Source: Bradyrhizobium sp. CB1717
GTDB taxonomy: Bacteria > Pseudomonadota > Alphaproteobacteria > Rhizobiales > Xanthobacteraceae
Direction: 5' to 3'
DNA: 64,000 nt
Assembly: GCF_029714325.1 (NCBI RefSeq)
Contig: NZ_CP121666.1
Coordinates: 6,727,001 to 6,791,000, forward strand
Shown: in pieces, positions 7,229-32,400 of the stretch
Position numbering within the stretch: the stretch's first letter is position 1
Layout: each line of letters begins with the position of its first letter
Translations under genes and position numbers: made by a program
The notes under the pieces: model-generated
The model's database searches: none
Seen by the model: the letters and a program-made list of their open reading frames with translations, nothing else
What the model was told of the DNA's origin: nothing

Positions 7229-7713
7229 GAACCAGCCCGTTGGGAGAAAACACGGACGCGGGGGACGCAACGCACACGAATCAATTTAGACGCGACATGA
7301 ATATTTTGTGGAAAAGTTTTGACTTGTCCAGCAACGACGCGCCGTCCGTCATGAAAGACCGTAGTCGCGCGGAGAATTGCTGTGATTTCGAGTCAAGCTT
7401 CGCACAAGCATGACGGACGTGCGCGGCACTTGATCGACGCTGGCGCTCGGCGCCACCGTGATCGCTCAACCGGAAGCTGATTCCGAATATCGCTTCAAGG
7501 AATCGGATGCAAAAAAAGAAAAGACCCGTCCGGGGGGACAACCGGACGGGTCGAGCCATATGGGCGCTTGGGGTGGATGGGCGCTCGCGCCTGATATGAC
7601 TGATGGGGAGGGATGACCGCTCCCACATAATTTGGTCGTGCTAGCGGGCTGAACGTTCAAATTCGGCGTTTGATTTTTTAGCCTTCGGCGTGCGCGCAAA
7701 GTTGTCGCAGAAG
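7229..7713. other. Gene-free interval of 485 bases
   Basis: I see no convincing gene here. It holds the upstream region of the minus-strand hypothetical gene (AT-rich, TGAATATTTTGTGGAAAAGTT at 7296-7316), a 10-bp inverted repeat GTCCGTCATG (7344-7353) / CATGACGGAC (7409-7418), a smaller GATTCC/GGAATC pair (7479-7504), and the terminator of the subtilase operon (7523-7552). The 115-codon minus frame across it has no family character. Confidence 0.6.
7523..7552 (-). terminator. Rho-independent terminator of the subtilase operon
   Basis: GACCCGTCCG (7523-7532) pairs perfectly with CGGACGGGTC (7543-7552). On the minus strand the stem is followed by a T-rich run, the complement of AAAAAAAGAAAA at 7511-7522. 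It lies about 160 bases past the subtilase stop. Confidence 0.85.
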
Positions 7714-25842: not shown

Positions 25843-26130
25843 ATGGCCGCCATCGACCCTCTCACCGCAGGTGCCGTGTTCATCGCAACGGCGGCCACAG
25901 ACGCGGTGTATGTCATGTTCACCTCGGCCGTGATCGCGCGCAAGCGCATGTCAGCGGCGAACTGGAGCGCCGTCTGGTACATGCTCTCCTCCTACGCCGT
26001 GATCAGCTACACCGAGAACCCGTTCTATGTCGCTTTCGCTGCGATCGGCTCATGGGCCGGCGCCTACGCCTCGCTGACCTTCCTGCACCGCCCGCCCGGC
26101 GGCCCGCCAGTTGGGGCGTCGCCGGAGTGA
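25843..26130 (+). CDS. Small integral membrane protein, unknown function
   Basis: 95 residues with three hydrophobic segments (~8-30, ~41-58, ~60-80) and a Gly/Pro-rich tail. AAGGAA lies six bases before the ATG. I recognise no family. It diverges from the CoA-transferase gene with only 53 bases between the two starts, so the two promoters must overlap. Confidence 0.65.
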   Translation: MAAIDPLTAGAVFIATAATDAVYVMFTSAVIARKRMSAANWSAVWYMLSSYAVISYTENPFYVAFAAIGSWAGAYASLTFLHRPPGGPPVGASPE

Positions 26131-26150
26131 GGGGGCCCCGCCTCTCTCCA

Positions 26151-26238
26151 CGTCATTGCGAGGAGCCCTTGCGACGAAGCAATCCAGACTGTTTCCGCAG
26201 ATGCATTTCTGGATTGCTTCGCTGCGCTCGCAATGACG
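26151..26238. repeat. Palindromic repeat, CGTCATTGCGAG family, copy 1
   Basis: The arms are CGTCATTGCGAG (26151-26162) and CTCGCAATGACG (26227-26238), with inner GAAGCAATCCAG/CTGGATTGCTTC. It is an almost perfect long hairpin. A second copy lies at 27227-27305; together they bracket the SDR gene. Confidence 0.9.
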
Positions 26239-27077: not shown

Positions 27078-27089
27078 GGGGTACACTGT

Positions 27090-27192
27090 CATCGCCCGGC
27101 TTTGACCGGGCGATCCAGTATTCCAGAGGCGGCTGTGATTGAGCCGAGAGGCCGCAGCGTACTGGATACCCCGCTTTCGCGGGGTATGACGA
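27090..27192. repeat. Palindromic repeat, TCATCGCCCGG / GGGGTATGA type
   Basis: It contains CGCCCGG-CTTTGA-CCGGGCG, then GATCCAGTATTCCAGAGG ... GTACTGGATAC, then CCCCGC-TTT-CGCGGGG. It is a compound, imperfect palindrome directly after the SDR gene, unrelated in sequence to the CGTCATTGCGAG copy next to it. Confidence 0.75.
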
Positions 27193-27226
27193 CTGAGAGT
27201 GTGGCGCGCGATCGCCTCGACAATCT

Positions 27227-27305
27227 CGTCATTGCGAGCGCAGCGAGGCAATCCAGATCTTTCGGCGGTGACAGTCTGGATTGCTTCGCTGCGCTCGCAA
27301 TGACG
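27227..27305. repeat. Palindromic repeat, CGTCATTGCGAG family, copy 2
   Basis: The arms are CGTCATTGCGAGCGCAGCGA and TCGCTGCGCTCGCAATGACG with inner GCAATCCAG/CTGGATTGC. It is a close match to the copy at 26151-26238 and lies 27 bases past the dnaE2 stop, so it may end or stabilise the imu/dnaE2 transcript. Confidence 0.9.
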
Positions 27306-27331
27306 GCGTGGCGGCATCCCGCGCCAAAACC

Positions 27332-30300
27332 TCAATGAAAATCCCGCGACGGCGGCAGGATGCGGACGTTGCGGGGGTGGCGGATTTTTTGCGCGGGCAT
27401 GTCCGCGAGGGCGCGGGGGTCCTCGTTGAGTGGCTCGACCACGGTGGCACCTGACGGCACCGGATGCCTGCTGCTGAGCGCATCGTTGGCGAGGCCGACC
27501 AGATCGTGCGAGCGGTCGACCATGCGCTGGGCGATGAGATGCGTCACCTTTTCGGGGCTGCTCTGGATGTAGCCCTGAACCTCGATGAGGCGCGCGCCCA
27601 TCACCTCTTTGCGGTACTGCTCCATGATCTTTGGCCAGACCACGACATTGGCGATGCCGGTTTCGTCCTCCAGCGTCATGAACACGACACCGCTGGCGCT
27701 GCCCGGCCGTTGCCGCACCAGGACCACGCCGGCGCAGCGGACGCGGCGCCGCTCGTTCTCATGGCTGATCTCCTTGCAGGCGACGACGCGCTCGCGGGTA
27801 AACATCTCGCGCAAGAATTCCATCGGATGGCCCTTCAGCGACAGCCGGATGGTCTGGTAGTCCGCGACCACCTGCTCGGAGCGCGGCATCACGGGCAGCG
27901 GTTGTGCGTGTTCGTCCGGCTGCTCGCGTGCGGTCGCAGCCTCGAACAGCGGCAGCGGCACGTCGTCGGGCAGCCGCCGCACCTGCCACAGCGCCTCGCG
28001 GCGGTCGAGCCCGAGCGAGCGGAATGCATCGGCATCGGCCAGCAGGATCAGCGCGCGCTTGGGCAGGCCGGTGTCGCGGGCGAAATCCTCCAGCGAGGTG
28101 AAGGGACGGCGGTTGCGGGCCGCGATAATGCGGTCGGCCCAGTCTTCTCTCTTGTCATTCTGGAGCGTCGCGTCAGCGACGAGCTCTGATGCGCAATTGC
28201 GCATCTGAGAATCCATTCCGAAAGGCGTATGCGGCTCGATGGATTCCGGGCTCGCGCCTTTCGGCGCGCCCCGGAATGACAGTTGGGAGCGTTTCAGCCG
28301 CTCCTCATCCTCATCGAGCCAATGGAAGCCGTCGATCTGGCGGAGGCCGAGGCGCACGGCGCAGTATTTGCCACTTCCCTGCTCCAGCGTGTTCTGCGCA
28401 AAGCTGAAGGACACGTCGATGTCACGGACCTCGACACCATTCTTGCGGGCATCGCCGACGATCTGCGCCGGGGCGTAAAATCCCATCGGCTGCGAGTTCA
28501 GGAGGCCGCAGCAGAAGGCGTCGGGATGGTAGTACTTCAGCCACGACGAAATGTAGACCAGTTGCGCGAAGCTTGCGGCATGGCTCTCCGGAAAACCGTA
28601 GGAGCCAAAACCCTTGATCTGGTCAAAGCAGCTTCTGGCGAAGTTGGGGTCGTAGCCGCGCGCCACCATGTTTCCGATCAGCTTCTCCTCGTATTGACCG
28701 ATGGTGCCGACATTGCGGAAGGTCGCCATCGAGCGGCGCAGGCCGTTGGCTTCCTCGGACGTAAAATGTGCGGCCTCGATCGCGATCCGCATCGCCTGCT
28801 CCTGGAACAGCGGAACGCCGAGCGTCTTGTGCAGCACATTGTAAAGCTCGTCCTTGTCGCCATGATCCGGCGACGGAGACGGATAGCTCACCTTCTCGAG
28901 CCCGTTCCGCCGCCGCAGGTAAGGATGCACCATGTCGCCCTGGATCGGCCCGGGACGCACGATCGCAACTTCGATGACGAGATCGTAGAAGGTCCGCGGC
29001 TTCAGGCGCGGCAGCATGTTCATCTGGGCGCGGCTCTCGACCTGGAACACGCCGAGCGATTCCCCGGCGCACAGCATGTCGTAAACCCTGGGGTCATCCT
29101 GCGGGACACTCGCCAGCACATAACGTTTGCCCTTGTGCTGGTCGATCAAGTCGAAACATTTCCTGATGCAGGTCAGCATACCCAGTGCGAGCACGTCGAC
29201 CTTCATCATATGAAGCGCATCGACGTCGTCCTTGTCCCATTCGATGAAGGTGCGGTCGTCCATCGCGGCATTGCCGATCGGCACATAGGTGTCGAGCCGG
29301 TCCTGGGTCAGCACATAACCGCCGACATGCTGGGAGAGATGGCGCGGGAATTCGATCAATTCGGTCGCAAGCTCGACCGCGAGGTTGATCATCGGGTTTT
29401 GCGGATCGAGCCCGGCCTGCCTGACCTGCATGTCGTTGAGGCCCTTGCCCCAGCTGCCCCAGACGGTGTCGGCGAGCGCGGCGGTGACGTCCTCGGTGAG
29501 GCCGAGCGCCTTGCCGACGTCGCGGATGGCACTGCGCGGGCGGTAGTGGATGACGGTGGCGATGATCGCGGCGCGGTGGCGGCCATAGCGGCGATAGACA
29601 TATTGCATCACCTCCTCGCGCCGCGAATGCTCGAAATCGACGTCGATGTCGGGCGGCTCCAGCCGCTCCTTGGAGATGAAGCGCTCGAACAGCAGGTCGA
29701 CCTTGGTCGGGTCGACCGAGGTGATGCCGAGCACGTAACAGACGGCTGAGTTCGCCGCCGAGCCGCGCCCCTGGCACAGGATGTTCTGGCTGCGCGCGTA
29801 GTGGACGATGTCGTGCACGGTGAGGAAATAGTGCGCGTATTTCAGCTCGGCGATGAGCGCGAGCTCTTTCCTCAGGGTGGCGCGCAGCTTGTCGTCGATC
29901 TCGCCGCCGAAATACTTTTGCACGCCTGCCCAGGTGAGATCCTCCAGATGTCCTTGCGCGGTCTTGCCCGGCGGCACCGGCTCGTCCGGGTACTGGTATT
30001 TGAGCTGGTCGAGCGAGAAGTCGATTGCGTTCGCAAAGCGCATGGTCTCCGCGATGGCGTCGGGAAAATCGCGGAACAGCCGCGACATCTCGCGTGGCGT
30101 TTTCAAAAATCGCTCGGCATTGGCCTCGAGCTTCCGCCCGACCGCCTCGATCGTGGTCTTCTCCCGGATGCAGGTCAGCACGTCCTGCAGCGGACGGCGG
30201 CCGGGATCGTGATAGAGCACCTCGTTGGTCGCGAGCAGCGGCACCTTTGCTTTGGCCGCCAGATCGTCGAGCCGCGAGAGGCGCCGCCGGTCGTCACCGC

Positions 30301-30808
30301 GATAGATCAGGCTCGCCGCCAGCCACACGCCCTCGGCGCGGGTGTCTTTAAGTTTTGCGAGGATATCCAAAGCCTGCGCCGGCTCGAAACGATGGGGCAG
30401 CGCCAACACCAGGAGCTGGCCTTGCGAAAACTCCAGGAGATCGGCAAACCTCAGATGACACTCGCCCTTCTCGATCCGCGTGATGTCGTCGCCGCGCTTG
30501 CCCCGGGTCAGGAGCTGACACAGCCGGCCATAGGCCGCACGATCGCGCGGATAGACCAGGATGTCGGGCGTACCGTCGATGAAGACGATGCGGGCGCCGA
30601 TCAAAAGCTTCGGCTTGTGCAGCACCTTGTCATTGTCGAGTTCCTTGTAGGCCCGCACCACACCGGCGAGCGTGTTGTGATCGGCAATGCCGATCGCGGG
30701 GAGGCCCAGAATGCTCGCCTGATGCACATAGGCGCGCGGATCCGAGCCGCCGCGCAGGAAGGAGAAATTCGTGGTGATGCCGATCTCGGCATAGGCGGGC
30801 GTATTCAT
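27332..30808 (-). CDS. dnaE2: Error-prone DNA polymerase DnaE2 (ImuC), with in-frame repeat insertion
   Basis: 1158 residues from ATG 30808, which overlaps the imuB stop by four bases (ATGA). Domains in order: PHP (~1-270; YAEIGITTNFSFLRGGSD, GIADHNTLAGVV), polymerase core with the acidic residues of DIDVDFEH and the CQGRGSAANSAVCYVLG motif, helix-hairpin-helix, and an OB fold near the C-terminus (CAGVVLVRQRPGSASGVVFMTLED). DnaE2 works with ImuA and ImuB in SOS-induced mutagenic translesion synthesis. Residues ~843-885 are encoded by a 127-bp palindromic repeat (28154-28280) inserted without breaking the frame. The upstream frame to 30973 lies inside imuB and is rejected. Confidence 0.95.
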   Translation of the reverse strand: MNTPAYAEIGITTNFSFLRGGSDPRAYVHQASILGLPAIGIADHNTLAGVVRAYKELDNDKVLHKPKLLIGARIVFIDGTPDILVYPRDRAAYGRLCQLLTRGKRGDDITRIEKGECHLRFADLLEFSQGQLLVLALPHRFEPAQALDILAKLKDTRAEGVWLAASLIYRGDDRRRLSRLDDLAAKAKVPLLATNEVLYHDPGRRPLQDVLTCIREKTTIEAVGRKLEANAERFLKTPREMSRLFRDFPDAIAETMRFANAIDFSLDQLKYQYPDEPVPPGKTAQGHLEDLTWAGVQKYFGGEIDDKLRATLRKELALIAELKYAHYFLTVHDIVHYARSQNILCQGRGSAANSAVCYVLGITSVDPTKVDLLFERFISKERLEPPDIDVDFEHSRREEVMQYVYRRYGRHRAAIIATVIHYRPRSAIRDVGKALGLTEDVTAALADTVWGSWGKGLNDMQVRQAGLDPQNPMINLAVELATELIEFPRHLSQHVGGYVLTQDRLDTYVPIGNAAMDDRTFIEWDKDDVDALHMMKVDVLALGMLTCIRKCFDLIDQHKGKRYVLASVPQDDPRVYDMLCAGESLGVFQVESRAQMNMLPRLKPRTFYDLVIEVAIVRPGPIQGDMVHPYLRRRNGLEKVSYPSPSPDHGDKDELYNVLHKTLGVPLFQEQAMRIAIEAAHFTSEEANGLRRSMATFRNVGTIGQYEEKLIGNMVARGYDPNFARSCFDQIKGFGSYGFPESHAASFAQLVYISSWLKYYHPDAFCCGLLNSQPMGFYAPAQIVGDARKNGVEVRDIDVSFSFAQNTLEQGSGKYCAVRLGLRQIDGFHWLDEDEERLKRSQLSFRGAPKGASPESIEPHTPFGMDSQMRNCASELVADATLQNDKREDWADRIIAARNRRPFTSLEDFARDTGLPKRALILLADADAFRSLGLDRREALWQVRRLPDDVPLPLFEAATAREQPDEHAQPLPVMPRSEQVVADYQTIRLSLKGHPMEFLREMFTRERVVACKEISHENERRRVRCAGVVLVRQRPGSASGVVFMTLEDETGIANVVVWPKIMEQYRKEVMGARLIEVQGYIQSSPEKVTHLIAQRMVDRSHDLVGLANDALSSRHPVPSGATVVEPLNEDPRALADMPAQKIRHPRNVRILPPSRDFH
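28154..28280. repeat. Palindromic repeat inserted in frame within dnaE2
   Basis: The ends are GTCATTCTGG (28154-28163) and CCGGAATGAC (28271-28280). Inner stems include GCGTCGCGTCAGCGACG, GATGCGCAATTGCGCATC and CGCGCCTTTCGGCGCG. It has the features of the intergenic palindromic repeats elsewhere in the window but lies wholly inside an open reading frame; read on the minus strand it has no stop and encodes SFRGAPKGASPESIEPHTPF and the following ~23 residues. Confidence 0.88.
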
Positions 30809-32400
30809 GCGAAGAGACCGTGAACATACCAGCCGGGAGACGCGGGCTTGCCGTCGCCGTCGAATACCTCCCCCTCGTAGAGACCGTCGCGAAAGATCCA
30901 GAAGCGCAGGCCCTCGGCATCCTCGATGCGGAAATAGTCCCGCGTCAGCTGCTTGCCGTCCTGCCGCCACCATTCCATGGCGATGCGCTCGGGCCCTTCC
31001 ACCCGCACCACCGCGTGCAGCGCACGGCGCCAGGTGAATTGATGCGGCGGGCCATCAGGCACGGTCGCGAACGGCACCTTGATCGGCTCCGGCTTGTCGA
31101 ACAACCGCAACGGGCGCAGCGGCGGCTCGCTCTCGGTGCGAACAGGCCATTCGGCCTGCATGGCAGACGTGAGATGATGCTGCGCAGGCGCGGCCAGCAC
31201 CGCGCTTTCGGGGATATGGGTGTCCTGCGGCAGGTGCACGACGACGCGTTTTCCCCCGATGCGCGCGGCGATGCGGTCGATCAAAGCGGCGAGCTCGTCA
31301 TTGTCGTGGACATGGGCGTCGAGGTCGCGCTGCTCCTGCACAACGATCTCGGTGCGGCTCGCCGACAGCCGCACCATGTCGAAGCCGAAACCGGGATCGA
31401 GCGGATCGGCGAGCGCATCGAGGCGCTCGCGGAACAGGCGGTCGACCACCGCGCTACGCGTCACGGGACGCCCGGTCTCGACCATGATCGCGCGCACCAC
31501 GCCGTCGGTGCGGAAGAAGGCGGCTTCCAGCCGCCGCGCGCCCTTGCCCTGCTTCTCCATGGACGCGATCAACGTGTCCGCAAGCCGCGACAGCGTCATC
31601 GCAATCATCGTGTCGGTCGCGATCGGCTCGGCAAAGCGCTTCTCGACGATGTAGTCGGGCAGCGGCTTGCGCGGATTGATCGGCGCATCGCCCTGCCCCA
31701 GCGCATGCGCGAGCAGGGTCGAAAACCGCGCACCGAACCGTGCCGTGATCTCGGAGGGGTTGCGCGAGGCGACATCGCCGATGGTCTTCAGCCCGGCGCG
31801 GCGCAGGCCGGTGGCGATGGCCTCGCCCGCGCCGAGCGCTGAGACTGGAAATGGACTGATCGCCTCCGCCTCCCCGCCATCGGCCACGATGGTGCCTGTC
31901 GCCTGCCGCGTCAGCGTGCGCGCGCAGACCGACGTGCCGGCGATCGCCGCGCTGACGGCAAAGCCCTGACGTGCGAGGGCGCGAACCAGCGTCTGCAACA
32001 GGGCCGCCTCGCCGCCGAACAGATGCGCGCAACCGGTGATATCGAGAAACAGCCCGTGCGGCGGATCGAGCGCCACCAGCGGCGTGAAGCGGTCGCACCA
32101 GTCGGCGATGTCGCTGAGCGTCTTGGCATCGGCCACGACATCGGCGTCGAACACTTTCAGATCCGGACACATCGCCCGCGCATTGGCCAGGGGCTGGCCG
32201 ATGTACAGGCCGAGACGCTCGGCGGTTTCGTCGACCGCATGGATCACCAGCGCATTGTTCTCCTTGATGACGACAATGCTCGGCTCATGATTGGCCTTAC
32301 CCAGCCCGGCGTTGTTGAAGAACCGCTGAATCCGGTCGATGGGCAAGCGCGGCAGCCACAGGCTGAGAATACGTCGAGGGTTCACTGAACTGGCACTCAT
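30805..32400 (-). CDS. imuB: ImuB, Y-family polymerase-like mutasome subunit
   Basis: 531 residues from ATG 32400. It keeps the Y-family polymerase layout but starts RRILSLWLPRLPIDRI and has LDITGCAHLFGGE at the second site, so the acidic catalytic residues of active Y polymerases are missing. This is the ImuB hallmark: a non-catalytic hub that contacts the beta clamp, ImuA and DnaE2. The C-terminal region (~330-531; PLRPLRLFDKPEPI, MEWWRQDGKQLTRDYFRIED) is typical. The start overlaps imuA by 104 bases in another frame; ATG 32463 would make the overlap longer still. It ends in an ATGA overlap with dnaE2. Confidence 0.93.
   Translation of the reverse strand: MSASSVNPRRILSLWLPRLPIDRIQRFFNNAGLGKANHEPSIVVIKENNALVIHAVDETAERLGLYIGQPLANARAMCPDLKVFDADVVADAKTLSDIADWCDRFTPLVALDPPHGLFLDITGCAHLFGGEAALLQTLVRALARQGFAVSAAIAGTSVCARTLTRQATGTIVADGGEAEAISPFPVSALGAGEAIATGLRRAGLKTIGDVASRNPSEITARFGARFSTLLAHALGQGDAPINPRKPLPDYIVEKRFAEPIATDTMIAMTLSRLADTLIASMEKQGKGARRLEAAFFRTDGVVRAIMVETGRPVTRSAVVDRLFRERLDALADPLDPGFGFDMVRLSASRTEIVVQEQRDLDAHVHDNDELAALIDRIAARIGGKRVVVHLPQDTHIPESAVLAAPAQHHLTSAMQAEWPVRTESEPPLRPLRLFDKPEPIKVPFATVPDGPPHQFTWRRALHAVVRVEGPERIAMEWWRQDGKQLTRDYFRIEDAEGLRFWIFRDGLYEGEVFDGDGKPASPGWYVHGLFA

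Follow-up and report, generated by a model that had tools for sequence, protein, structure and literature searches.

We consider it likely that dnaE2 of Bradyrhizobium sp. CB1717 carries a pair of REP units in the region encoding the hairpin of its product and that this loop has been reused by several tolerated repeat families, versions of which have been exchanged. The gene lies in a stretch of 64,000 nucleotides (contig NZ_CP121666.1, positions 6,727,001 to 6,791,000), here called the window; coordinates are those of the window unless a place in the genome is named.

A palindromic repeat is read in frame within dnaE2

dnaE2 (27332..30973, minus strand) was identified by its 1213-amino-acid (aa) open reading frame, its Pfam domains (PHP, polymerase, finger, HHH_6, and OB), and its relatives; translation probably starts at Met56 (position 30808). 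The whole insert (28153..28281, minus strand) reads TGTCATTCTGG...CCGGAATGACA, extends from TGTC to GACA with inverted repeats inside, and covers residues 898 to 940 of the 1213-aa frame, two edge bases included. Counted from Met56, these are residues 843 to 885. A sequence-only reading of the window had described a dispersed palindromic repeat in frame inside dnaE2, stop free on the minus strand and encoding residues ~843 to 885, and our analysis bore this out; the dnaE2 frame is unbroken on either side. The stop-free state by itself is unremarkable, since 290 of the 528 frames of the 88 copies outside dnaE2 and uvrD were also open. The lengths of those 88 copies were spread over all three frame classes (24, 35, and 29 copies).

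The 127-bp unit is a composite: a spacer separates two REP units, one of which contains a 26-bp palindrome. The unit on the 5′ side in the dnaE2 sense (28242..28281, minus strand) is 40 nt long and consists of a TGTC head, the stem arm ATTCCGGG, an inner stem-loop, and CCCGGAAT. It is separated by a spacer, recognized from the sequence (28217..28241, no strand assigned), from the second unit (28153..28216, plus strand), which is inverted, has a degraded stem, and holds an extra palindrome, as judged by its sequence, its repeat arms, and an alignment of eight copies. The arms of this 26-bp palindrome (CTCTGATGCGCAA/TTGCGCATCTGAG; 28184..28209, no strand assigned) are 92% complementary with zero spacer.

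We conclude with near certainty that two CGTC-type REP units in inverted order make up the insert. CGTC REPs are described as having CGTC (often TGTC or CCTC) at one unit end, an 8- or 9-bp stem, and a short tail (PMC3733652), and the insert resembles CGTC-1 of that report in its TGTC/CGTC head, its 8-bp stem beginning with AT, its CCA tail, its inverted pairing, and its Bradyrhizobium host. TGTC was found at both outer ends of the insert, and the heads of 48 first units in relatives were CGTC or TGTC. The stem of the 5′ unit (ATTCCGGG/CCCGGAAT) opens with two positions of complementary A-T, as do the 8- or 9-bp stems of CGTC-1; the stem of the second unit is degraded in the window copy. GGAATCCA stands behind both units, in the place of the mostly CCA tail of CGTC-1, and many dispersed copies were detected, with inverted pairs among the own-genome matches. 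The loop of the dnaE2 unit contains an inner stem and exceeds the 4 to 5 bp of CGTC-1; other loop lengths are mentioned for Bradyrhizobium CGTC-1 (PMC3733652). By eye, the insert also shares the outer frame ATTCCGGG...CCCCGGAATGA with Br-REP2 of B. japonicum USDA 110 (PMC5082802). Unlike the dnaE2 insert, Br-REP1 and Br-REP2 are reported in that work from intergenic regions and 3′ untranslated regions (UTRs).

Folding of the insert gave z-scores of −5.8 as RNA and −5.1 as DNA, and none of 200 shuffles was equally stable. Rfam returned no match on the insert at the gathering score. The sole Rfam match in the window was a Rhizobiales-2 sRNA at 7523-7624 (minus strand, 95 bits). Pairing was counted in 48 distinct first REP units that fitted the motif pattern, taken from 137 inserts labeled A: 99.2% of 654 stem cells were paired, and two-sided changes occurred in 6 of the 14 pairs. 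Cells with such changes numbered 45, compared to 6.9 in shuffles (none of 500 reached the observed count) and no more than 19 in slid versions. REP stems at the dnaE2 site are thus kept by paired changes. Some versions of the first unit differ by entire stems, a pattern that suggests that other REP copies took their place and not that they drifted; the paired changes could also reflect selection on DNA or RNA structure.

Copies of the repeat in the CB1717 genome

In the own genome, a single contig of 9.23 Mb, the 127-bp unit had 76 matches, of which 8, counting the dnaE2 copy, were full length with 75 to 100% identity. The best match of the insert to dispersed copies reached an E value of 2.3e-22. 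A covariance model built on the 8 full-length copies returned at least 140 rows, corresponding to at least 98 distinct places, a lower bound because just 150 of 3,801 first-look candidates were scored. Compared to the other REP units of the genome, the loop of the dnaE2 unit found no match and was unique among 111 units fitting the pattern.

The sequence-only reading had proposed counting copies inside and outside genes. For the 7 full-length copies outside dnaE2, the most extensive open frame around a copy had 106 codons on one side and 52 on the other. Ninety of the 98 places were read, and 53 of them lay in an open frame with at least 30 codons per side. All 39 frames besides dnaE2 with at least 50 codons per side were scanned against Pfam; frames with shorter sides were left out. 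As in dnaE2, domains on both sides of the copy were detected in uvrD (place 3037590-3037689 of the genome) and in no other of the 39 frames; seven further frames had domains on one side only. By this test, which misses genes without flanking domains or hit near an end, 2 of the 90 copies (dnaE2 and uvrD) reside in recognizable genes. Among candidate genes from a peptide search, for which 10 of 30 loci were inspected and seven frames from six loci were scanned, none had domains on both sides.

The dnaE2 site is occupied by repeat DNA in most of the genus

DnaE2 was detected in all 146 Bradyrhizobium genomes, and 139 loci were fetched, one per genome; the other seven, with dnaE2 in pieces or cut, were left out. 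The linker, defined as the stretch from LKR to DWADR, could be delimited in 251 of 257 loci (genus, family, and named genomes). Its length was a multiple of three in all 251, no linker contained a stop, and the frame continued for at least 240 aa in 248 loci; the remaining three stop at contig ends. Occupant types were set by motif rules, with three loci (L051, L219, and L224) relabeled by hand.

By these rules, 121 of 138 Bradyrhizobium genomes (of the 139 fetched) had repeat-derived DNA in the linker. The types were A (CGTC REP) in 85; A+C in 13; B in 9; A+B and A+D in 5 each; D in 2; and C and C+D in 1 each. The 17 loci without a repeat had a linker of 42 nt in 16 cases and of 24 nt in 1, and five of the A loci held only short remnants of 36 to 60 nt. 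The 38 loci from other genera of the family comprised 29 with a short linker (3 to 54 nt), 6 of type E, 2 of type F, and 1 unassigned. In more distant bacteria, the alignment placed zero residues at the site in 21 loci, in line with the earlier statement that other DnaE2 proteins run on there with little or no insert. The same reading had also called for an alignment of DnaE2 across Bradyrhizobium and had pictured an isolated landing of a mobile palindrome; such a landing is not borne out, as repeat DNA at the site is common to 121 of the 138 genomes. We regard a shared, old occupation of the dnaE2 site by repeat DNA as highly probable. Neither a target-site duplication (by eye), which a MITE would be expected to leave, nor a strain-level empty site was recognized, and no target sequence shared by the insertions was seen.

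These counts bear on two other explanations. A recent mobile insertion specific to strain CB1717 could draw on the 26-bp palindrome of the second unit, which is not present in the close relative L012, so that this portion is new in the window copy; the remainder of the insert, however, is common to close relatives at the same place, and the site is occupied by repeats in most genus genomes. We judge this explanation very improbable, and strain-specific transposition of the whole element was ruled out by the shared insert and the occupancy. The other is an ordinary variable DnaE2 protein linker without any repeat, as the short linkers in 29 of the 38 loci of other genera might indicate. Against it stand the DNA matches to dispersed copies outside genes, the folding of the insert, and the paired stem changes; the dispersed copies rule it out, and we give it a vanishingly small probability.

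Several palindromic families share the site

It is very likely that several palindromic families use the dnaE2 site. The commonest occupant was the CGTC REP; three further palindromic families (types B, C, and D) were found singly, within remnants of a REP, or side by side, as with the tandem of C and D in L241, and other genera of the family contributed two more (E and F). Inserts of types C and B frequently start with apparent A remnants. All eight long inserts that were folded, representing types A to F, formed long hairpins. With both strands counted, copies of B, C, and D gave 28, 46, and 25 matches in their source genomes and 71, 41, and 6 matches in the genome of the window; type B had no match in a third genome, and type D had none in another. 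Twenty-four places with C or B copies in the CB1717 genome were inspected; they yielded 10 frames extending for at least 50 codons in both directions, and Pfam detected no domain in any of these. In 23 of the 108 A-containing genus inserts, a small palindrome (core TTGCGCAA or CAATTGCG) was observed, at varying relative positions.

Linker versions do not follow the dnaE2 gene tree

A tree was calculated from 194 DnaE2 genes with the linker removed (after removal of 27 identical rows and a further 30 listed ones). The linker type did not track this tree and required 54 changes on it, and the 42-nt and A versions were interleaved. Because the linker version departs from the gene tree, the 54 changes represent insertion, loss, and exchange together, and counting independent insertions from the tree was dropped for the same reason. 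When the 42-nt and A classes were compared, the sole clear difference between within-class and between-class identity was in the 30 nt that immediately precede the linker, with a weak one in the 30 nt that follow. This pattern fits exchange of short tracts alongside insertion and loss. The 14-residue (42-nt) linker is close to EQAKRQGKVYVTQE; its 16 loci (in L211-L234) were scattered over the tree between versions that carry REPs, and linkage to the 14-residue version was confined to the nearest codons.

The inserts have diverged strongly. In 188 ungapped pairs of equal length, mean identity of insert residues was 42%, compared to 92% in the flanks, and identity of insert bases was 56%, compared to 71% at flank third positions; length changes inside the inserts may lower these figures. 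The insert might nevertheless be kept for a function: the protein loop could modulate how the hairpin binds DNA, or a hairpin formed in RNA or DNA could regulate dnaE2 expression. The stems kept with paired changes, the strong fold, and the presence of some insert in most of the genus would fit such a role. We find it improbable, as the insert is missing in 17 of 138 genus genomes, unrelated families replace one another, residue identity averages 42%, and the stem changes are also expected if REP copies replace each other.

The insert maps to the hairpin region of HHH_6

By profile comparison, the part of dnaE2 directly behind the insert (27992..28147, minus strand; residues 943 to 994 by Pfam) matches positions 35 to 90 of HHH_6. 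In three loci with linkers of 0 to 1 residue (L120, L123, and L260), the match extended from model position 1 or 2 to position 89 or 90; in L253, the window, and L063, it began only at position 34, 35, or 40. The profile evidence is good and not perfect, because L063 showed a partial match despite a linker of 2 residues. Solved Pol III alpha structures aligned well up to about residue 857, and none aligned across the site. Judged by the profile, the insert site appears to be the hairpin region of the helix-hairpin-helix domain, and the added residues are most likely a largely unstructured, exposed loop that the protein does not need. The surface loop proposed earlier would correspond to this hairpin region; its exposure itself is inferred.

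The most likely course is a random or weakly biased insertion that was filtered for frame and for tolerance in a variable loop and was followed by short-tract exchange. Palindromic repeats would reach dnaE2 rarely, and the survivors would be insertions that keep the frame, are stop free, and lie in a loop that the polymerase can spare. Later repeats may then insert into or overwrite earlier occupants, and linker versions would move between strains via short-tract recombination.

Relation to known intragenic repeats

Intragenic REPs are a known kind of element: a report of 2013 described them inside genes of many species, with many in repair genes and with DnaE2 and UvrD named (PMC3733652). According to the same source, different REPs lie at about one site in recB of two Xanthomonas, and some Rickettsia palindromic elements are classed as CGTC REPs. 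What differs here is that one DnaE2 site was traced across a genus and holds REPs plus at least three other palindromic families. The earlier view that palindromes within genes are rarely described outside Rickettsiales did not hold, given REPs in genes of many bacteria (PMC3733652) and repeats in enterobacterial genes (PMC2759123). Rickettsia palindromic elements resemble the insert as in-frame palindromes within genes and measure ~105 to 150 bp, and for one Rickettsia protein containing such an element, translation and activity were shown (PMC2229807, PMC10969869). By their description in these reports, they differ in host and sequence and reside in many unrelated genes, not at one site used by several families. 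The enterobacterial repeats RU-1 (ERIC), RU-2, and RU-3 are likewise small open-frame repeats fused in frame to genes; they belong to other families and other hosts, and the text available of PMC2759123 makes no mention of reuse of a single site. DnaE2 has been noted to be heterogeneous in length, with repeats not given as the cause in the part of that source at hand (PMC3919608). Our searches of open-licence papers turned up no account of several repeat families using the same polymerase loop across a genus.

Selfish palindromes in coding genes have mostly been shown as single landings; here, several unrelated families fill one loop of a mutagenic polymerase genus-wide. The dnaE2 site thereby constitutes a natural loop-swap series in one enzyme and makes tolerance versus targeting of small palindromes testable. 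We caution against treating repeat-derived residues or altered lengths of DnaE2, UvrD, and ImuB as adaptive domains before a test has been made.

Similar inserts in UvrD and ImuB

For UvrD, 60 genomes were searched and 30 genus loci were read (L378-L407, besides the own-genome locus L368 at 3037590-3037689). The linker, which we take to be located before motif III, measured 117 to 201 nt and was in frame and stop free in all 30 loci. By motif, 13 linkers were CGTC-REP-like, 11 were of the SPRxRGEV kind, 5 were of the LPGLTRQS kind, and 1 was different. Eight inserts were compared to fetched stretches of the CB1717 genome; the CGTC-REP-like and SPRxRGEV kinds matched dispersed copies, and the LPGLTRQS kind gave short matches only. 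An intergenic palindrome at 336-486 of the window was matched by SPRxRGEV-kind UvrD inserts of relatives. In other genera of the family, UvrD linkers measured 75 to 231 nt in 27 loci, and many looked repeat-like by eye.

The N-terminal linker of ImuB, read in 30 genus loci, measured 51 to 69 nt in 22 loci, 117 nt in 3 (L450, L451, and L454), and 180 to 279 nt in 5 (L461-L465). The 5 longest contained repeat-like sequence, and the 117-nt linkers carried an FSSEV...REENASK insert. This peptide was also seen in DnaE2 of other species (L087, L195, and L199), at residues ~156 to 158, away from the main site.

Targeted or damage-linked insertion is an alternative that we rate as rather unlikely. It would hold that repair genes are hit while opened and transcribed during DNA damage or that an existing palindrome attracts the next one. 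It draws on the finding that the only domain-flanked copies among the 90 places read in the own genome are those in dnaE2 and uvrD, on the similar sites in UvrD (30/30 genus loci) and ImuB (5/30 long and 3/30 medium), and on the many intragenic REPs reported in repair genes (PMC3733652). When the in-frame REP peptide was sought in 40 genomes, 10 rows lay in frames of more than 1,000 aa, and all 10 were dnaE2 by coordinates. An 862-aa MMPL protein, chosen as a non-repair control, was without inserts: its matches measured 2,574 to 2,583 nt in 39 of 40 genomes, and in the 40th the match was split over two. However, this is a single control gene, encoding a membrane protein; genes lacking domains on both sides escape the domain test; repair proteins may just have spare loops; and no common target sequence was seen. 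That the inserts concentrate in DnaE2, UvrD, and ImuB hints at more than tolerance, but a single control gene plus a gene test based on domains does not suffice to assert this. On balance, we lean toward tolerance, not targeting, as the main reason for the occupation of the dnaE2 site.

An extended form of targeting, which we put forward as an unlikely proposal, is that the DnaE2 hairpin, the UvrD loop before motif III, and the ImuB N-terminal linker act as landing pads in alphaproteobacterial repair genes to which insertion by unrelated families is repeatedly drawn. Damage-linked opening, transcription, or earlier palindromes might serve as the attractant. If true, these sites would keep the proteins that determine the rates of mutation and repair supplied with variable loops.

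Repeat-like sequence was also observed elsewhere. DnaE2 of Rhodopseudomonas and Bosea carried repeat-like inserts (VDARVKPGHDGG; HPEEPRSGVSKD) in other loops, after residue 177 in L108, L114, and L117 and near residue 862 in L142. Beside the SDR gene that adjoins dnaE2 in the window (~26110-26220 and 27080-27331), open reading frame strings of the form HCERSEAIQ...LPRCARND look like further repeats.
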